The notes under the pieces are model-generated. The model ran no database searches. It was not told the DNA's origin and saw only the letters and a program-made list of their open reading frames with translations. DNA of 64,000 bases from Flavihumibacter petaseus NBRC 106054 (lineage in GTDB: Bacteria > Bacteroidota > Bacteroidia > Chitinophagales > Chitinophagaceae). The translations under genes and the position numbers were made by a program. How positions within the stretch are numbered: position 1 is the first letter of the stretch; each line of letters starts with the position of its first letter. This document shows positions 21,437-29,572 of this stretch, piece by piece. The stretch is from positions 248,001 to 312,000 of the forward strand of contig NZ_BBWV01000004.1 of the NCBI RefSeq assembly GCF_000974785.1, given 5' to 3'.

Positions 21437-22773
21437 GAGACTGAATGTATCATTTTTCAATAAATACTGAAAAATTAATACGGAATAACCACCTCCGTTT
21501 GCCATTTTACTGGAACTGAAAATATTCCCCAGATTATGAAATCCAACCAGCAACGGGCCTGCTTTTCCAGCAAGTCCCAGCCAGAACTGGTTATTGTAAT
21601 TGCATTGCAGCGGCAAATAAACACCCCAGGTTCTTGTCTCCCAGCGGGGGGTGACCCGGAACAGGCCAATGCCCCTGGAATAAAGCTCAGATTTACCCAA
21701 CAGCGGAGTCAGGTTCAAACTCAGGTCGGCATTCAGAAAAAACTGTCCGCCCATCCAGTAATCAACATTAATTACCAGCCTTGCAGGATAAAAGATCCGG
21801 AAAACTTCGTCCGGAAATGTCGTGGGGATGACTGAACTGAGCGAATCCGTAAAATCAGCAAGGCTTTTTACAGGGTCCCCATATCCATCAGTGATACGCC
21901 GATTTTCCAGTCATAGTCATAATACGCCTCCTCATCTTCCATACCGGAACTAATGCCGGACTTAACAAGCAGCTCCACACCAATGCCGAACGAAAAGCCC
22001 GTTTTTGTGGCTTTCAGGAACTCGCTGATATTGTTTTTATCGCTAACCTGATCATTCCACCGATCATAATTCGACGAGTAGCTGTAGGTGAAACCACCCT
22101 GGTTCAGCAGGTAGTCTGTCTGATCCCCGGAATTTATGGTTACCATATCAACATCATCCACGTCAGCGCGAAAGCCGCTGATTCCCCGGTTGATCTTCAC
22201 CGTTACGCCGGCATTCAGCCTGTAACCGGCCCTGTCCACAATAGTCTGACCATAACTGGCAAATAGTTCAAGAATACTGCTGTTCCTGAGTTCGCCGGTG
22301 AAAGGACCGTTTTGCCTGTTCAGTTCAACATATGACCCGATTGAACTGACGGTGTCTTTGTAACTGTATTCAGAGGTCTTGATGTCGGAAAATGTGCGGA
22401 TGTTCGCCCCGAAAGCTACAGCCCGCTTGCGGCCCCAGGCAATCCGCGTGTTGAAAATGTTTGCATTGCTGACCGAACACCCAAATCGCGCAAACTCCCC
22501 GCCAATAACCTGAAATTTTGACCGGGCCGGAGATCCTATCAGAGAGTAGTCCAGTATCCTGACTGCATTGGTCTGGTACTGCACCTGCAATCCGGCAATT
22601 GTAACATCCCAGGGATAAGGCGTATTGACAATTGCAGCCGGATTTGATCCAGCGCCCAGCGAGCCTGCATAATTATAACCTTGTACTGCATTGTACTGCT
22701 GTGCAACCATACCGGAACCGGATAGCAGGCATGCCGTCAATAACGCTGCCACTGCCTCAATACGCATTGCCAT
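21437..22773 (-). pseudogene. DUF5723-like outer membrane protein gene, frame-broken
   Basis: Signal peptide plus beta-barrel-like protein read in two frames. The first 301 codons (22773-21868) start with a signal sequence, then YNYAGSLGAGSNPAAIVNTP, and stop after SLMDMGTL. The continuation KSLADFTDSLSSVIP, PARLVINVDYWMGGQFF, VTPRWETRTWGVYLPLQ and GPLLVGFHNLGN is in the -1 frame from about 21885 onward and belongs to the same family. That second frame has no stop before the regulator gene and runs into it. Either a real frameshift or small deletion, or a sequencing error. The start overlaps the FAD gene by 17 bases, so it belonged to the operon. Confidence 0.75.
21452..21475. promoter_or_regulatory. 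Perfect inverted repeat, candidate GbsR/MarR operator
   Basis: ATTTTTCA (21452-21459) and TGAAAAAT (21468-21475) are exact reverse complements separated by eight bases. The repeat centre lies 27 bases upstream of the regulator's ATG. MarR-class dimers typically bind such palindromes. Binding is inference. Confidence 0.5.
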
Positions 22774-23896
22774 GGGTTTGGCGAATCAAAAATTGCGTAA
22801 GCATCGGAACTTTTTTAGCAGTACCGACCAGCAGCCGGGTAAGGGCCGGGTCACCAAAAAAACGCTGAATAATTCTTCCCGCACGCAGCCTGGAAGAAAA
22901 ATTTCGCGCCCATTGGCGGCTATAAACGTTTTCCATTGAAGCCCGTGACAATTGTCCCCTTAAAAAACCATCTGCCGCACCCGCAGCCATCTTTCCTGCC
23001 CGTAGAGCCATGCTCATCCCGTTACCGCAAAGCGGCGATATCATGCCTGCTGAATCGCCTGCCATCAGCACATGCGATTCGACGCTTTTTTTGGGTGAAA
23101 ATGAAATCTGAGAGATACTCACCGGATTGGCACTTACAAATGTTGCAGTTTTCCAGATCCGGGCAAGGTGCGGATTCCTGCAAAGAATCTCCTGTTCCAT
23201 CGCAGAGATGCTGTTATTGCAAAGTCCAAGGTTAGCCGCACTCGTCATATAGCAAAGACAATACTCCCCTCCTTCAACAGCTGAAATACCGCAATAGCCA
23301 TCCTGAAAATTGTGAAGCGCTATCCTGTCTGCAGGTAAGTCGCACCGGATATGATACTTGATGCCGATATAGTTATTCAGTTTATGTGGCTTCCCGCCAA
23401 TAAAACTCCTTTTCCAGCGGACATCCAGGTTGCTTCTTTTTCCAAAGCAGCCAAGGGCCACCTGGCAGGCAAATACCTGTTTACCTACAAAAACATGGTG
23501 CTGATTACTTTCAAAGGTTATATCATCCACCTTGTGCCCTTCCAGGATTTCGACGCCGGCAGATCGGGCCAACCCCGCAAGTCTGGCATCCAGCCCATAC
23601 CTGCTGGCACCAAACCCGCCGGGATTTAATGGAGCAAACAGAAAACTGCCATCAGGAGCGCTCACCTGAAGGTTGCGGATTTTCGGAAACTCCGGGTCCG
23701 GGAATTCACATCCCAAATGCATAAGAAAATCGCGGCTTTCTTCACCGATATATTCTCCGCATACGCGTTGAACCGGATAGAAGTTTTTTTCAATCAACAT
23801 TACCTGATATCCCTGGCGACCCAGCAGGATCGCTGCAGACAGGCCAGCCAGACCACCGCCAGCTACAATAACATCATATGTCGTAACCTGCTTCAT
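22757..23896 (-). CDS. FAD-dependent oxidoreductase of the polyketide operon
   Basis: A 379-residue flavoprotein of the geranylgeranyl reductase/aromatic hydroxylase group. The Rossmann motif GGGLAGLSAA lies at residues 13-22, VCGEYIGEES follows near 46, and the second FAD motif MAGDSAGMISPLCGNGMSMA lies near 278-297. The start ATG overlaps the methyltransferase stop (ATGA), which selects 23896 over an in-frame ATG 16 codons earlier. It probably hydroxylates or otherwise oxidises the aromatic ring made by the polyketide synthase. Reduction of a prenyl or alkyl chain is the alternative. Confidence 0.85.
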   Translation of the reverse strand: MKQVTTYDVIVAGGGLAGLSAAILLGRQGYQVMLIEKNFYPVQRVCGEYIGEESRDFLMHLGCEFPDPEFPKIRNLQVSAPDGSFLFAPLNPGGFGASRYGLDARLAGLARSAGVEILEGHKVDDITFESNQHHVFVGKQVFACQVALGCFGKRSNLDVRWKRSFIGGKPHKLNNYIGIKYHIRCDLPADRIALHNFQDGYCGISAVEGGEYCLCYMTSAANLGLCNNSISAMEQEILCRNPHLARIWKTATFVSANPVSISQISFSPKKSVESHVLMAGDSAGMISPLCGNGMSMALRAGKMAAGAADGFLRGQLSRASMENVYSRQWARNFSSRLRAGRIIQRFFGDPALTRLLVGTAKKVPMLTQFLIRQTHGNAY

Positions 23897-24585
23897 TGCT
23901 GGTTCACTTCTGCCAGAATACTCCACCGGAAGGCCCATGCCCAACGAATCTGGTAATCATCAATGCCCGCTTTACGCAACAACCTCACCCATTCCTCCCT
24001 CCTGAATCCTCTGAGCACAGACAGCGGTGCGTCATTTTTCACGAGTACGGAGCGGGAAAGGAGCGCTGTGATCCATTTAATCGAATAATAAGCAACCGGA
24101 TGTCTATGGAGGTCATTGATAAAAAATCCGATGTTGCAATACTCCTTCATCCACTTTAGCTGTGCCACCAATTCATCATCAGAAAAGTGATGGCAAAACA
24201 GGGAGGAAAAAATAATATCAGGCTTTTCAGAAAATGTGACCTGCCTGTAATCACTGTGTAGGTATCGGGTACCGGGATCGTTTTCCCTTGCATACCGGAT
24301 GCACTCGCCATTAAGGTCAATGCCAGTCGTCGTTATGGATTTACCATTTGAAGTTGCCCAGCTTCTAATAGATGCAAGATTATCGCCACCACCACTGCCA
24401 ATTTCACAAATTGAAAATCCGGGCCTGCTTTTTACCAGAGCTGCTACTGCCTGGATGTTCAGCCTGTGACCACCGAGCAGGTGATTGATCGTTTTCAGTT
24501 CGATGAGATTCTGCCTGATGGCCTCAAACGGAACACCCGGCAAATCGAGCAATTCACTTGCCCGTGAGCGGTTATCCCATTTCAT
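23893..24585 (-). CDS. SAM-dependent methyltransferase of the polyketide operon
   Basis: A 230-residue class I methyltransferase. The SAM-binding motif is SICEIGSGGGDNLASI near residues 78-93, TTTGIDLNGECIRYAREN follows, and DIIFSSLFCHHFSD is motif IV/V. The C-terminal part (VLRGFRREEWVRLLRKAGID) resembles small-molecule methyltransferases. The start overlaps the polyketide synthase stop by four bases (ATGA) and its own stop overlaps the FAD gene start in the same way. The likely substrate is the polyketide product, at O or C; sequence does not say which. Confidence 0.85.
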   Translation of the reverse strand: MKWDNRSRASELLDLPGVPFEAIRQNLIELKTINHLLGGHRLNIQAVAALVKSRPGFSICEIGSGGGDNLASIRSWATSNGKSITTTGIDLNGECIRYARENDPGTRYLHSDYRQVTFSEKPDIIFSSLFCHHFSDDELVAQLKWMKEYCNIGFFINDLHRHPVAYYSIKWITALLSRSVLVKNDAPLSVLRGFRREEWVRLLRKAGIDDYQIRWAWAFRWSILAEVNQQ

Positions 24586-25667
24586 GACACAACAGCCTCC
24601 AGGCAGCAGGTTTCAATGCACAAGCCAGGGCCAAATGCTGCCATCAATGTTTTTCCGCCAGTGCCTTTGGCAAGCATCCGCGACAACACAAAAAGGACTG
24701 TCGGGCTTGACATATTTCCAAATTCGCGCAGTACACCATATGCATCTTCAAGCTGCGCATCAGGAAGGTCAAGGCAATGCGCTACAGCCTGCAGTATCCG
24801 TTTTCCGCCGGGATGAATACACCAATCGTCAACCTGGGCGGCAACCCATCCGGCATTCTCCAGCGCCCTATCGACCAGAGGACGAAAATCAGCACGGATA
24901 AGTTCCGGAATGTAACCACTTAAAGTCATGGCAAATCCGTAAGGGGTGATCTCCCAACACATATCTTTTTTCCCTGAAGGAAGAAATTCAGCGTAGAAAT
25001 CCCTGATCGTTGCCAGGCCGCCTTCACCGTTTCCCAGCAGTACCGCAGCCGATCCGTCACCAAACAGCAATGAAGCAGCAATATTATCCGGACTGGGTGT
25101 TTTCTGAAAATGAAGTGTGCACAATTCAGTGCATACGATCAGCACCCTCGCATCACGTTCGGCCCTGCATATCTGATCACCCTGGCGTAACGCATGTATC
25201 GCAGCGTAACATCCCATGAAATTAATGGAAGATCGCTTTGTGGACCGGGGGAATCCCAGTAGTTCGACCAGTTCAACATCCAGACCAGGGGCGCTCATGC
25301 CGGTGCAACTTACTGTAATCAGGTGCGTAACGCATTCCTGGCGGAGGCACTGATCCTGCAGACAATTGTTGATAGCTGCCACAGAGAGACCGGCAGCATA
25401 CCGTTTGTACCAATCCATCCTTTTCGAGATATCGGGAAAAGGTTCCAGTGATTCCTCAGGTGAATAAAATTGCCAGGCAGCCGGCGGCAAACTATAATCC
25501 GGTATCACTGAATAACGGTTGTCTATACCCGAATGCTGATACAGGTAGGCAAGCTTTCTTCTTTCAACCGGGTCAAGGGCAAATACACCTTCCATAAAAT
25601 GGCGGATATCCATTTGCTGGTGTTTATACCCGGGGACGGCCGTACCTATTGAAATTATTTTAGTCAA
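24582..25667 (-). CDS. Type III polyketide synthase
   Basis: A 361-residue chalcone-synthase-fold enzyme that extends an acyl-CoA starter with malonyl-CoA. The catalytic triad is complete: Cys153 in NFMGCYAAIHAL, His285 in DWCIHPGGKRIL and Asn318 in REFGNMSSPTVLF. SCTGMSAPGLDVELVELLGF and AASLLFGDGSAAVLLG are further family segments. The partner genes suggest an alkylresorcinol- or pyrone-type product from a fatty acyl starter. The starter cannot be read from sequence. It overlaps the UbiA-like gene by eight bases and the methyltransferase gene by four. Confidence 0.95.
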   Translation of the reverse strand: MTKIISIGTAVPGYKHQQMDIRHFMEGVFALDPVERRKLAYLYQHSGIDNRYSVIPDYSLPPAAWQFYSPEESLEPFPDISKRMDWYKRYAAGLSVAAINNCLQDQCLRQECVTHLITVSCTGMSAPGLDVELVELLGFPRSTKRSSINFMGCYAAIHALRQGDQICRAERDARVLIVCTELCTLHFQKTPSPDNIAASLLFGDGSAAVLLGNGEGGLATIRDFYAEFLPSGKKDMCWEITPYGFAMTLSGYIPELIRADFRPLVDRALENAGWVAAQVDDWCIHPGGKRILQAVAHCLDLPDAQLEDAYGVLREFGNMSSPTVLFVLSRMLAKGTGGKTLMAAFGPGLCIETCCLEAVVS

Positions 25668-26541
25668 GGAGCTTCAATATTAAAATAAAGAGAAACCCTG
25701 CATTGGAACATATCGACGAAATCAGGTTCATGCGCATCAGGTGATCAAAATCAGCCGCCCCTGGATCCTTCCAGACTGCCGCCGCCCATTTTGTGAAATA
25801 AATCAGCACAGGAAGAAAAAACAACAGCAGTAACAGGTATCGTGTCAGTTCCAGTTGCAAAGCAAAATGCAATCCAAGTGCCAGGAATGCCAAACTAAAT
25901 AACGCCCCGGAAAAAAGAAAGGTTGCTTTGATCCCCAGTAACCTGCTGATCGAATGAACGTTATCCTGTTTATCCTGCTCGTGCTGGTAAACCTGGGTAA
26001 GCGGATAGGCTCCCCCGATGAGCAATGTACTGGCGACACAACCCGTAAGGGAAGGATTAAGGGAATGATGCAGGTGTGCTGCGTGGTAAGAGAGCGCATA
26101 GACCAGCGCGCCCTGGCAAATAATGACCAGCAGAAAACCGCCAACCGGGAACCGCTTTATTCTTGTCAGCCTGCTGCTGTATAATCTGGAGGCCATGATA
26201 TACAGGAGAACACCAAGGGCAAACCAGGGTGTTATCAGAAAAGAAAGCCCTATGGCCAGGAGGTCCATAATGTTTACGACAGTAAGCAATTCCGTTGTCG
26301 GTTGAAGCGGATTCCTGATGCCCCCGACAGCTGATGTATCCCGGTCTGAGTATCCATTAAATCCGTTACTGGCAGGATAAACAAGCAGATGAAGGATAAT
26401 ACCGGCAAGAAGAGTGCTCCGCCAATCCGTATAAACTGTCTGGCTGACAGCGAACAAAAAAACTGGCAAAAGAAAAAACGAAAATGGAAACCGTAGCAGT
26501 TGTATTGTCGATGGTTTAAGCATAATGCTGCTAATAGTCAT
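25660..26541 (-). CDS. UbiA-like prenyltransferase, membrane
   Basis: A 293-residue protein with about eight membrane helices. The first Asp motif region reads SNGFNGYSDRDTSAVGG near residues 59-75 and the second HEQDKQDNVHSISRLLG near 188-204. Both correspond to the diphosphate/Mg sites of UbiA, though with fewer acidic residues than classic members. A GAAGAGAA ribosome site before 26541 supports this start, inside the last codons of the barrel gene. It may prenylate the polyketide aromatic ring. Being an inactive or altered member is a possibility. Confidence 0.82.
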   Translation of the reverse strand: MTISSIMLKPSTIQLLRFPFSFFLLPVFLFAVSQTVYTDWRSTLLAGIILHLLVYPASNGFNGYSDRDTSAVGGIRNPLQPTTELLTVVNIMDLLAIGLSFLITPWFALGVLLYIMASRLYSSRLTRIKRFPVGGFLLVIICQGALVYALSYHAAHLHHSLNPSLTGCVASTLLIGGAYPLTQVYQHEQDKQDNVHSISRLLGIKATFLFSGALFSLAFLALGLHFALQLELTRYLLLLLFFLPVLIYFTKWAAAVWKDPGAADFDHLMRMNLISSICSNAGFLFILILKLLD

Positions 26542-28198
26542 ATTCTCTTCTGAACATATTCATTCTTAATCCCAAACTAAACATTGTCGTATTTCTGCTC
26601 AGCGTGGGATCATCCGCCACCTTATAATTCCGCACCTGGAAAACGCCATCTACAAAAAGATTTTCCAGCACTTCATACCCAACCCATAGGGACGCATTCA
26701 CGCCCGTTGCCCGCCGGCCTTCACCAATTTTCCAGTCATAATCTTTGGGGCGGTCGGTATAATAACGGAAGATATTGCTGCCGTAATTAATTCCGGCTGA
26801 ATCGAGCCCCTGGATCCAGCCAATAATCTTGCCCTGGATGCTGAGCTTGGGAATTGGCTGATATTTCGCAATCCCGATCACTTCACGAAGGTTGGCGCCC
26901 ATTGGATGGGCCAATGGCTGGTTATAGTGGGAATAGTTGGCAACACCATCAAAGTGGGAATAGGTAAAGGGCCGAACGGCATTGTATTCTGCCTGCAGGT
27001 CGAGATTACGGATCCCGAGGGCGTCTATGTATTTCGCGCCCAGCTGAATACCATATTTGTTTCCCCACCATCCTTCACCGCCTTTCATCTCACTCAGTTT
27101 AAATTCATCAAGGAGAATCTGAGAATATATCTGCACGTGTTTCGCAATATTTGCCTTCACATCAAAACCGATATTGGCATTGTCGGCACTTCCATTTTGT
27201 TGTTCAATCGAACGGAGGAAAATGATGGGGATCAGGTAGCTGAATTCGAAATGGTTTTCCCTGCCAAATACAACAGATTCAAAAAAACCAATATTCAGCC
27301 ACTTGGTCGCCTGCAGGCTGAGGTGGTGTACAGCAGCATATTTTTTATCAATCAGCTCATTTCCGGGATTGATCAGGTCCTGCGGTGTCAGTTCCATGAA
27401 CATGCTCTGGTAGTTCAGCTTCCAGATACGTGCCGCAAGCTTAAGGAAGAGGTAGTTATTGGAAAAATCGCTCAGGAAAAGGCTCCGGTATCCGTTGCCG
27501 ATAAAGTTTTTATCATATCCGAACTGGACGTTGATGTACTTGGTGATATTAAAAAATACCGATCCGCGGGCATCGAAATAGTCATAACCGGTTTTTTTGA
27601 ATGTCTTGTAAAAACCTGCTCCCGGTACAGCATGAAAGGAGTCGACAAAACGGCGAACATAAAAGGGATCCCTTTCCTGGTTATCGGTAAGGTAAAAGTC
27701 AAAACCTATTTTTTTGGCGATCAGACCTCTTCCACGGGCGCCTTTGCTGTTCACAAAGAGGGTTTCATCGGTTCCGGACTCTTTACCTGCCTGAAACTGA
27801 AACACCGGGTTGACACTCAGAAAGAAATCCTTGGTATCTACCAGCAGGAAATCAGATTTGACCTTATAAAAGGTTTTCACCCATGGTTTCCTGCTATTAA
27901 ATGCATCTTTGGGACCTGTCACCCATTCATAGTTATTCATCAGGGCATCCTGGATATTGTAGGCATCCACTTTGTTCATCGGAGCTGTTGAATCAATCCG
28001 CTCAAGGGCTGCCACCCAGCCTTTCCGGTCATAAGGTTTGATATGCTGGAAAGACAGTGCACTATCCCTGAACCGGATCTCAAGCCTGTCCATCAGGTTC
28101 TGGTGCTTATACCCCTGCGGCAGGAGTGGCGTCTGAGAAAAAAGCTGGGCGGGCAGGATTAAGCAGATTCCGTAAAGCAGTCTTTTAATACATTGCAT
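26531..28198 (-). CDS. Wzi/RemB-like outer membrane beta-barrel protein
   Basis: A 555-residue exported protein with a signal peptide (MQCIKRLLYGICLILPAQLF, then SQTPLLPQG). Many amphipathic strands follow: YINVQFGYDKNFIGNGYRSL, FEFSYLIPIIFLRSIEQQ and GIQLGAKYIDALGIRNLDLQ are typical of the capsule-assembly Wzi family, which in Flavobacterium includes the motility-related RemB. The last strand is NTTMFSLGLRMNMF. The frame is open 73 codons further upstream, but that part crosses the divergent pyrC-type gene and has no signal. It overlaps the UbiA-like gene by 11 bases. Confidence 0.78.
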   Translation of the reverse strand: MQCIKRLLYGICLILPAQLFSQTPLLPQGYKHQNLMDRLEIRFRDSALSFQHIKPYDRKGWVAALERIDSTAPMNKVDAYNIQDALMNNYEWVTGPKDAFNSRKPWVKTFYKVKSDFLLVDTKDFFLSVNPVFQFQAGKESGTDETLFVNSKGARGRGLIAKKIGFDFYLTDNQERDPFYVRRFVDSFHAVPGAGFYKTFKKTGYDYFDARGSVFFNITKYINVQFGYDKNFIGNGYRSLFLSDFSNNYLFLKLAARIWKLNYQSMFMELTPQDLINPGNELIDKKYAAVHHLSLQATKWLNIGFFESVVFGRENHFEFSYLIPIIFLRSIEQQNGSADNANIGFDVKANIAKHVQIYSQILLDEFKLSEMKGGEGWWGNKYGIQLGAKYIDALGIRNLDLQAEYNAVRPFTYSHFDGVANYSHYNQPLAHPMGANLREVIGIAKYQPIPKLSIQGKIIGWIQGLDSAGINYGSNIFRYYTDRPKDYDWKIGEGRRATGVNASLWVGYEVLENLFVDGVFQVRNYKVADDPTLSRNTTMFSLGLRMNMFRREYDY

Positions 28199-28231
28199 CG
28201 GTTTCGTTTTATTATGGCTAATTTTCAAATT

Positions 28232-29572
28232 ATGCAAAAATACCTGATTAAAAATGCCCGCATAGTGAATGAAGGAAAGGTTTATACAGCCGACCTTCTT
28301 TTGGAGGGGGGAATTATTGAAAAGATCGGAAGCCGGATTGACCCCGCCTATGGCGTTACAGAAATCGATGCCGAAGGCCAATACCTGATACCGGGAGTAA
28401 TTGACGACCAGGTACATTTCAGGGAACCAGGGTTAACGCACAAAGCAACAATACAAACCGAATCAACAGCCGCAGTTGCCGGTGGCGTTACCAGCTTTAT
28501 GGAAATGCCCAATACCCAACCGCCTGTTTTCACACAGGAACTCCTGGAAAACAAATACACCATTGCTTCCGAAACCTCTTTGGCCAACTACAGTTTTTTC
28601 ATGGGAACCAGCAATGAGAACTATGACGAGGTGATGCGTACCAACGAGAAAAAAGACAGGGTATGTGGTATTAAGATTTTCATGGGATCTTCAACAGGCG
28701 GGCTGCTCGTAGACAACCCCCTGGCACTGGAAAGAATATTTAACAATACTGAATTATTGATTGCCACGCATTGCGAAGACGAACGCATTATCCGCCACAA
28801 CCTGCAGGAACTGCAGAAGTCGGGACGGACACTTACTGCTGCCGATCACCCCGTCATCAGATCCGCCGAAGCGTGCTTTGAATCATCTTTTTTTGCCATA
28901 CAAATGGCAAAAAAATTTGACAGCAGGTTGCATATCCTCCATATCTCCACGGCAAGGGAACTACCGTTGTTCGGAAATATGTTACCACTGGAAGAAAAAC
29001 GGATCACCTCCGAAGTTTGTGTACACCACCTCCATTTTACGGCCGATGATTATGACCGTCTCGGTAACCTGATCAAATGCAACCCCGCCATCAAGGCAGC
29101 AATTAACCGTGACGCTTTGTGGGAAGGATTACTTGATGACCGCCTGGATATCATCGCAACAGATCATGCGCCACATACCCGGGCAGAAAAAGAAGAGGAC
29201 TACCTTCACGCACATGCCGGGGTACCGCTGGTACAGCATTCACTGCTACTGATGCTTCGCTATGTGGAAGCCGGCAAAATCACCATTGAAAAGGTTGTGG
29301 AGAAGATGTGCCATGCCCCAGCCACATGCTTCCGGATCAGGAACCGTGGGTTCATCCGGGAAGGGTATCATGCTGATCTAGTGCTGATCAATCCGGCTGA
29401 AACCACAACCGTTTCCAAAAAGAACATTTACTACAAATGCGGCTGGAGTCCTTTTGAAGGAGAGAAATTTCCGGCATCAATATCACATTGTTTTGTCAAC
29501 GGGCACCTTGCCTATGCCCATGGCCAATTTGATACTTCCAGGAAAGGACAGCGGCTGCTTTTTAACCAATAA
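28232..29572 (+). CDS. pyrC: Dihydroorotase
   Basis: Amidohydrolase-fold enzyme cyclising carbamoyl-aspartate to dihydroorotate in pyrimidine synthesis, 446 residues from MQKYLIKNARIV. Features are GVIDDQVHFREPGLTHKA, MEMPNTQPP, a GIKIFMGSSTG Lys strand, THCEDE, HILHISTARE and IIATDHAPH. The first metal motif has Gln60 where the usual HxH has His; I recall the same substitution in other Bacteroidota dihydroorotases, so it may still be active. In-frame ATGs at 28193 and 28214 are less likely because they crowd the divergent barrel gene. Confidence 0.9.
   Translation: MQKYLIKNARIVNEGKVYTADLLLEGGIIEKIGSRIDPAYGVTEIDAEGQYLIPGVIDDQVHFREPGLTHKATIQTESTAAVAGGVTSFMEMPNTQPPVFTQELLENKYTIASETSLANYSFFMGTSNENYDEVMRTNEKKDRVCGIKIFMGSSTGGLLVDNPLALERIFNNTELLIATHCEDERIIRHNLQELQKSGRTLTAADHPVIRSAEACFESSFFAIQMAKKFDSRLHILHISTARELPLFGNMLPLEEKRITSEVCVHHLHFTADDYDRLGNLIKCNPAIKAAINRDALWEGLLDDRLDIIATDHAPHTRAEKEEDYLHAHAGVPLVQHSLLLMLRYVEAGKITIEKVVEKMCHAPATCFRIRNRGFIREGYHADLVLINPAETTTVSKKNIYYKCGWSPFEGEKFPASISHCFVNGHLAYAHGQFDTSRKGQRLLFNQ

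Follow-up and report, generated by a model that had tools for sequence, protein, structure and literature searches.

A conserved four-gene operon of Bacteroidota joins a type III polyketide synthase cassette to a UbiA-superfamily membrane protein and may make a tailored aromatic lipid

What does a bacterium make with four overlapping genes that encode, in order, a membrane protein of the UbiA superfamily, a type III polyketide synthase (PKS), a methyltransferase (MT) and a flavin adenine dinucleotide (FAD) enzyme, and is the UbiA protein integral to the pathway or a casual addition to it? The genes lie at positions 22757-26541 of a 64,000-nucleotide stretch of Flavihumibacter petaseus NBRC 106054 (contig NZ_BBWV01000004.1, positions 248,001 to 312,000), which as a whole is referred to here as the window. 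An earlier account made from the sequence alone (the sequence-only reading) had proposed a single pathway leading to a methylated, oxidised and possibly prenylated aromatic lipid or quinone. We propose, with a probability slightly better than even (roughly 55%), that the product of the operon is an aromatic-headed membrane lipid, namely an alkylresorcinol that is methylated, hydroxylated and modified by the UbiA protein, most likely by prenylation. The UbiA protein is a close partner of one PKS clade, also where the two genes are unlinked. The genes and residues on which the argument turns are listed below in window positions.

25660-26541, minus strand: UbiA-superfamily membrane protein gene, first of the four (293 amino acids; Pfam PF01040 at 52.1 bits, cut-off 34.2)
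26338-26358, minus strand: UbiA motif 1, Asn62-xxx-Asp66-x-Asp68, with Ser70 at the place of the third Asp of NxxxDxxxD
25972-25986, minus strand: UbiA motif 2, Gln186-xxx-Asp190, with an invariant Gln at the place of the first Asp of DxxxD
24582-25667, minus strand: type III PKS gene (361 amino acids, TTG start; Pfam Chal_sti_synt N and C domains at 89.8 and 72.3 bits, above cut-off)
24954-24956, minus strand: codon of PKS Trp238, aligned to PKS18 Leu266 and, by inference, to ArsB Trp281 (aldol or resorcinol type)
23893-24585, minus strand: class I S-adenosylmethionine (SAM)-dependent MT gene (230 amino acids; Methyltransf_25 at 34.5 bits, above cut-off; also Methyltransf_11)
22757-23896, minus strand: FAD enzyme gene (379 amino acids from the ATG at 23896; FAD_binding_3 at 39.3 bits, above cut-off)

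Open reading frames (ORFs) and Pfam matches bear out the four genes as first described, including their overlaps of 8 bases between UbiA and PKS (25660-25667), 4 bases between PKS and MT (24582-24585) and 4 bases between MT and FAD enzyme (23893-23896). The longest ORF of the FAD gene begins at 23944, against the ATG used here, and the true start of the UbiA gene may lie at 26523, since many relatives begin near Met7. None of the four proteins reached an NCBIfam cut-off among the models listed (for the FAD enzyme, the best 25 of 118 matches). Scans for promoters and terminators returned numbers at shuffle level (15 versus 12.8 and 8 versus 9.3, respectively). The best named relatives of the PKS belong to Flavihumibacter, family Chitinophagaceae.

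The arrangement is conserved across relatives. We scanned for relatives of the PKS with one genome per species, used the best 80 of 304 (loci L021-L100), and counted gene order in the 62 loci with at least 1.5 kb upstream and at least 3 kb downstream of the PKS. The order UbiA-PKS-MT-FAD is that of the window in 53 of the 62; seven of the exceptions lack an adjacent UbiA gene, one (L097) lacks UbiA and the FAD enzyme at that place, and one (L100) lacks the MT. The overlaps recur as well, with start codons picked by alignment to the window genes: UbiA and PKS overlap in 39 of 49 loci, PKS and MT in 43 of 71, and MT and FAD enzyme in 47 of 67, and the UbiA/PKS spacing met most often is the 8-base overlap (28 of the 49 measurable loci). 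Flavihumibacter solisilvae and Chitinophaga costaii both carry all four genes. Because the order is kept and the overlaps recur, the four-gene arrangement is conserved and not due to chance. The single pathway inferred from the sequence alone thus survives the comparison of neighbourhoods: the genes stay together, and UbiA accompanies the PKS even when unlinked.

Two features of these loci may be recorded alongside. With starts picked nearest that of the window, 69 of 78 PKS genes start with TTG, six with GTG and three with ATG, and in many loci the start lies inside the 3' end of the UbiA gene; a weak start conserved in this way may couple the yield of PKS to the translation of UbiA. In L097, from Emticicia, the PKS and MT genes are followed at the place of the FAD enzyme by a 231-amino acid protein that by eye resembles carotenoid monooxygenases, and UbiA lies elsewhere in the genome.

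Is the UbiA protein, then, a casual addition? We compared its occurrence with that of the PKS in three genome samples (relatives, 59 genomes; phylum, 296; class, 295), which are overlapping, related and phylogenetically uneven, using E-value limits picked after the first samples had been seen. In the relatives, UbiA occurs in 22 of the 59 genomes, the same 22 that carry PKS matches at E 4.2e-72 or better, and nine other genomes have weaker PKS-like matches and no UbiA. Across the phylum, the 21 of 296 genomes with UbiA at E <1e-70 coincide with those 21 whose PKS matches are strongest; the scores of the PKSs show no gap (1.5e-121 to 3.7e-118), so that the separation is one of tree branch only. 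The two genes are neighbours in 16 of these 21 genomes (six in the same direction, ten divergent), and in the other five they lie on different contigs or hundreds of kb apart. Among the PKS relatives, nine of eleven genomes without a UbiA gene beside the PKS carry one elsewhere, and in the two others (L078 and L093, of unstated completeness) no UbiA was found in the genome; three genomes with an adjacent UbiA served as controls. In the class sample, all 53 genomes with a PKS at E 1e-90 or better have a UbiA match, one of them broken (G449), and another genome (G408) has a split UbiA gene. In a quick PKS tree of 80 rows, hand-picked from the loci and with UbiA absence taken from the phylum and relatives samples and the distant UbiA genes of one family (f42) labelled as absent, all 46 rows from UbiA-bearing genomes fall on one side of a single branch (SH-aLRT 94) with one label change. 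PKSs of both kinds occur in three families (f1, f22 and f29), and in these as well UbiA accompanies the window-type PKS clade.

The converse case is informative. At E 1e-20, UbiA is found in 61 genomes of the class sample, eight of which fall below the PKS cut-off of 1e-90. On recheck the PKS adjoins UbiA in two of these (at 2e-85 in one, cut by a contig end in the other), and the assembly of a third is 61% complete and has its UbiA at the end of a contig. The remaining five genomes, 94-100% complete, have no PKS of the window-type clade, and their UbiA relatives are cut short (in two, G417 and G487) or have most motif residues changed (in the other three). A large gene, AsmA-like by eye, stands beside or near eroded or cut UbiA genes in four loci. 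Unlinked UbiA genes in three further loci have an MT gene as neighbour; in two of them this MT is a weak PRK06202 match, and in the third (L189) its matches, to models for phthiotriol and fatty-acid O-methyltransferases, stay under the cut-offs.

Two families depart from a strict rule that joins UbiA to the PKS. In family f42, the phylum sample has 26 genomes that carry both a PKS and a distant UbiA (E 1.1e-33 to 2e-22), and nine more with the PKS alone (26 of 35 PKS-bearing genomes thus have UbiA); its PKSs form another clade and we treat it as a separate lineage. The four distant UbiA proteins examined from this family have the same NxxxDxD/QxxxD residues, and none of the four lies beside the PKS. 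In family f36, UbiA is matched weakly in 43 genomes (E 9e-13 to 3e-11), and just two of these also gave a PKS match (4e-35 and 1e-12).

What might such a partner do? The AlphaFold2 model of the window UbiA protein (mean pLDDT 95.9) has UbiA enzymes as its nearest solved folds, the best match being the Archaeoglobus UbiA with dimethylallyl diphosphate (4tq4; E 4.5e-6, TM-score 0.65, 19% identity). Asn62, Asp66 and Asp68 are present in 43 of 43 rows, whereas residue 70 varies and is Asp in two of 43; Gln186 and Asp190 are present in the same 43 rows and in 28 of 28 further rows with letters at those places. The full set of Asn62, Asp66, Asp68, Arg127, Lys129, Gln186 and Asp190 is kept in 74 of 74 rows with letters (71 of them distinct, four the distant f42 proteins) and in 8 of 8 additional rows from the class sample. 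By comparison, none of the five UbiA relatives from PKS-less genomes has all seven residues, and in all five one or both of Gln186 and Asp190 are changed or missing. Residues that are kept with the PKS and lost without it are to be expected of an enzyme whose substrate comes from the PKS, and we infer that the UbiA protein is a transferase, most likely a prenyltransferase, dedicated to the product of the PKS. The stops counted in some Flavihumibacter UbiA genes fall at residue 291, the natural end of the protein, and these genes are therefore taken to be whole. Prenylation is likely and yet not readable from the family name, because the Asp-rich motifs are non-canonical. The UbiA protein might instead move another phosphate- or diphosphate-linked group onto the aromatic lipid, or bind the lipid and hand it over in the membrane. 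Its motifs NxxxDxD and QxxxD are not only non-canonical but invariant, membrane aromatic prenyltransferases, among them the polyketide O-prenyltransferase of Actinoplanes, are stated to have typical motifs such as NxxxDxxxD (PMC4044012), and the UbiA profile reaches only one solved UbiA sequence (E 0.0023). The fold, on the other hand, matches UbiA enzymes that use diphosphates, Asn62, Asp66 and Asp190 stand at canonical places, and the erosion of the set upon loss of the PKS speaks for an active enzyme rather than a scaffold; we consider a role other than prenyl transfer somewhat unlikely. The modelled fold and the residues that remain in place point to prenyl transfer at a metal site that has been altered. 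The possible prenylation suggested by the sequence-only reading is thus upheld as a UbiA-type modification, whereas its picture of a UbiA gene merely added to a three-enzyme set gives way to that of a close partner of one PKS clade with non-canonical motifs.

A housekeeping role for this protein in menaquinone or heme synthesis (MenA/MqnP or heme O synthase) was rejected: it reaches no NCBIfam cut-off for these, and such enzymes are encoded elsewhere in the genome, where a heme O synthase scores 235.2 bits (cut-off 210.3) and a UbiA-like polyprenyltransferase (TIGR01475) 265.5 bits (cut-off 180.8). EboC gave no match at E 0.01. Nearby isoprenoid genes are too few to hint at a prenyl donor; Dxs lies near the cluster in six loci, of which five have similar neighbourhoods, and UppS is nearby in one.

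If UbiA acts on the product of the PKS, what is that product? The catalytic triad Cys153/His285/Asn318, complete in the window as the sequence-only reading had noted, is invariant in 57 of 57 aligned PKSs, and the best solved relatives include Steely1 and PKS18. Trp238 is likewise present in 57 of 57 aligned PKSs and in all 46 rows of the UbiA-linked clade. By a hand count along the alignment, it falls on Leu266 of PKS18. Trp238 and Met247, which we take to correspond in chalcone synthase numbering to Gly256 and Phe265, are nine residues apart, which is the spacing of Gly284 and Met293 in ArsC. In the published account, Leu266 of PKS18 is listed in the acyl tunnel, Trp281 of ArsB versus Gly284 of ArsC decides between resorcinol and pyrone, and Met293 of ArsC moves along (PMC6274091). 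The invariant Trp238 at the presumed ArsB-type position leads us to predict an alkylresorcinol core, with the PKS as a putative long-chain alkylresorcinol synthase; given this core, the product probably belongs to the methylated and hydroxylated resorcinol or quinone lipids, in keeping with the methylated, oxidised aromatic lipid or quinone foreseen for this pathway. The PKS could instead make alkylpyrones, as PKS18 and ArsC do, with the tailoring enzymes decorating a pyrone. PKS18 is indeed among its best solved relatives, but all 46 clade rows have Trp at the place of Leu266 in PKS18 and, on the inferred alignment, of Gly in ArsC, and an FAD ring hydroxylase beside the PKS suits a resorcinol better than a pyrone; a pyrone is very improbable. 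The length of the acyl chain was dropped as a prediction, since the tunnel residues give conflicting signs. Cys183 is small, as is the residue aligned to it, Cys205 of PKS18, which is the one that differs in 1tee; this would suit a long acyl chain.

A second type of Bacteroidota type III PKS cluster, seen in seven loci, has the same FAD family, a Phe at the Trp238 place and no UbiA; its FAD-MT-PKS genes adjoin in six loci, with the FAD gene slightly apart in the seventh. Phe occupies this place in 7 of 7 rows of the clade with the FAD-MT-PKS order and no UbiA. The product of this second type should differ from that of the window type.

The MT matches PRK06202 at 125.5 bits, below the 243-bit cut-off. 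The FAD enzyme has as its best NCBIfam match TIGR02032, geranylgeranyl reductase, at 97.5 bits (cut-off 158.8), with QhpG second; its AlphaFold2 model (mean pLDDT 90.2) lies near FasV, PltA, the geranylgeranyl reductase (GGR)-like 3oz2 and 3-hydroxybenzoate 6-hydroxylase, a fold common to aromatic hydroxylases and monooxygenases, geranylgeranyl reductases and halogenases. It might accordingly reduce a prenyl or unsaturated acyl chain in the manner of a geranylgeranyl reductase, or be a halogenase, and its best NCBIfam model, together with the halogenases and archaeal GGR-like proteins that are its best solved relatives by sequence, points that way. The score nevertheless remains below the TIGR02032 cut-off, and WxWxI, which we take to be the halogenase motif, is absent: the family reads GYCGIS where an aligned halogenase reads GWLWYI, with Tyr201 and Gly203 in 53 of 53 rows. 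Relatives of the enzyme stand beside type III PKSs without UbiA in other clades and phyla, those of Novosphingobium and Mesorhizobium being annotated as monooxygenases, and the enzyme is kept in the clusters of UbiA-less genomes, so that its work is independent of any group that UbiA adds. Since the halogenase motif is absent, the reductase score falls short and relatives accompany UbiA-less PKSs, ring hydroxylation is our best guess, and a reductase or halogenase is unlikely. A member of the FAD family on a plasmid of Hymenobacter swuensis, 41% identical to that of the window, sits beside a gene of the isonitrile synthase family and a TauD-type dioxygenase gene.

How far is such a set of enzymes already known? 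We compared HidABC, PkqABC, agq and srsABC by their published descriptions. Operons of PKS, MT and oxidoreductase are described as yielding alkylresorcinols, O-methylated hierridins and polyketide quinones (PMC10896814, PMC8086630, PMC9927152). The hidABC operon for hierridin in cyanobacteria and a planctomycetal operon unite the same three enzyme types as the window, and their PKSs make long-chain alkylresorcinols; expressed planctomycetal PKSs from MT-FAD-PKS operons or variants proved to be alkylresorcinol synthases that make pentadecyl- and heptadecylresorcinols, and the MT of G. maris is probably a C-methyltransferase (PMC10896814). One of the two cyanobacterial arrangements, hidC>hidA>hidB (PKS, MT, oxidoreductase), has the window order (PMC8086630), whereas in the commoner hid order and in the planctomycetal operon the PKS comes last. 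The planctomycetal operon as described includes no prenyltransferase, and one cyanobacterial hierridin-like cluster has one. In pkqABC (Mycobacterium smegmatis and Streptomyces sp. MNU77), the PKS gene is followed by MT and oxidoreductase genes and Trp stands at the position of ArsB 281, as in the window, and the products are alkyl benzoquinones, used or proposed as electron carriers (PMC9927152); unlike the window set, that paper contains neither of the terms UbiA and prenyl. The loseolamycin locus has a UbiA-family gene, an MT and an acyl-CoA dehydrogenase beside its PKS, according to its gene table (PMC7587189).

A related case is agq of Actinoplanes missouriensis, in which a resorcinol made by a type III PKS is hydroxylated and also receives a prenyl group from a membrane-bound enzyme; its enzyme types fit the window by description, and its products are alkyl-O-dihydrogeranyl-methoxyhydroquinones, a name that includes a methoxy group. 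Typical Asp-rich motifs are stated for the agq prenyltransferase (PMC4044012), while those of the window UbiA are altered. The sequence-only reading had pointed to srsABC of Streptomyces griseus (type III PKS, MT and hydroxylase, yielding alkyl benzoquinones, with no UbiA in the description consulted; PMC9927152). On the published descriptions we set srsABC aside as closest kin in favour of hid, pkq and agq: the first two match at least as well, and agq already prenylates. SrsB is an MT of the isoprenylcysteine type, unlike the class I MT of the window. Homologous cassettes also occur in Deinococcus radiodurans and on a plasmid of Mesorhizobium sp. INR15, in window order with overlapping or abutting genes, with PKSs 38% and 37% identical to that of the window, respectively, and with an MT and FAD enzyme related by profile matches (the D. 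radiodurans FAD enzyme only weakly, at 22.8 bits). Unlike in the window, no UbiA is annotated alongside these sets, and the window UbiA gave no tblastn match against 72,556 plasmid records at E 1e-5. With three adjacent genes in the window and homologous MT and FAD genes in plasmid sets of other phyla, PKS-MT-FAD is a known, widespread bacterial cassette of the hid, pkq and srs type. The enzyme mix is thus known in kind, because agq also prenylates a type III PKS resorcinol, and the new part is a dedicated UbiA protein with altered motifs. Judged from listings, neither the Bacteroidota four-gene set nor its UbiA lineage was found in the open-access literature.

A pathway can be sketched from these parts, its steps given in the sequence that we consider likely. 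The PKS would be primed with a long-chain acyl thioester and, after three extensions with malonyl-CoA, would close the ring by aldol condensation to give an alkylresorcinol, as its residues suggest. The MT, to go by its family, would methylate a ring oxygen or carbon, and the FAD enzyme would hydroxylate the ring to yield a hydroquinone or quinone, in line with its fold and with the precedent of srs and pkq. In the membrane, the UbiA protein would attach to the aromatic lipid a group for which a prenyl chain, donated by a prenyl diphosphate, is the likeliest candidate.

Several observations weigh against this proposal. For Bacteroidota members, the open-access literature yielded no data on product, expression or enzyme activity. 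The partner is not always retained, as G449 has kept the PKS with three stops interrupting its UbiA frame. In other PKS clades and phyla the three-gene set occurs with no UbiA partner, and UbiA is therefore not needed for the core lipid. Neither canonical motif is complete in the UbiA protein, motif 1 lacking the third Asp and motif 2 having Gln for the first, so that diphosphate binding is not assured. Trp238 is not specific to the clade, being present in 27 of 27 rows of four other Bacteroidota PKS groups, and its mapping to ArsB Trp281 runs through chalcone synthase numbering as we presume it to be, with ArsB itself outside the alignment. Phe187, large where PKS18 has Ala209, conflicts with Cys183 on acyl length. 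The role of the FAD enzyme in the planctomycetal operon stayed unclear in the account consulted, where hydroxylation was not shown (PMC10896814).

What purpose could the lipid serve? It may be a quinone with a respiratory or antioxidant function, a lipid of the envelope or an antibiotic, and a quinone-type membrane role is our first guess. A structural lipid of the envelope or of resting cells, with no redox role, as in the cysts of Azotobacter, whose alkylresorcinols are membrane and coat lipids (PMC4824345), is a possibility to be taken seriously, if less probable than not, and the two genes that flank the operon in part of the family, a Wzi-like and a DUF5723 gene taken to encode outer-membrane proteins, would suit it. 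Against this, the presence of the FAD enzyme hints that the lipid is oxidised to a quinone, and the quinones produced by pkq-type sets serve respiration in mycobacteria and, as has been proposed, in Streptomyces (PMC9927152). Both flanking genes lie on the same strand in the window and had been left out of the otherwise correct extent given by the sequence-only reading.

26531-28417, minus strand: Wzi-like protein gene, directly upstream (Caps_assemb_Wzi at 23.3 bits, below the cut-off of 30.1)
21868-22773, minus strand: DUF5723 gene, downstream of the FAD gene with a 17-base overlap (PF18990 at 29.6 bits, cut-off 26.8)

The 3' end of the Wzi-like gene falls inside the longest UbiA ORF, and such a gene adjoins UbiA in eight Flavihumibacter loci (L021-L027 and L032) and rarely elsewhere. 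The DUF5723 protein has 301 amino acids in the window against 479-505 in 19 relatives, and its gene, directly downstream in 19 of 64 loci, is probably interrupted in this genome, to go by these lengths; it is a loose member of the operon, outside the core.

A bolder proposal, which we put forward tentatively and regard as rather unlikely in its full extent, is that the Bacteroidota UbiA lineage with NxxxDxD and QxxxD motifs serves the product of one PKS clade only, and that this product is a doubly tailed aromatic lipoquinone, bearing an acyl chain and a prenyl or other group, which in a considerable share of the phylum would add a second pool of quinone to that of menaquinone. At the least, a lipid pathway for which no described product was found in the open-access literature extends across many families of a major phylum, and its UbiA partner offers a clean handle on it, with four genes, a close co-occurrence and an active site that erodes upon loss of the synthase. 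The locus allows two questions to be tested: whether Bacteroidota have, besides menaquinone, a quinone of polyketide origin, and how a UbiA enzyme can function when its metal-binding motifs are altered.

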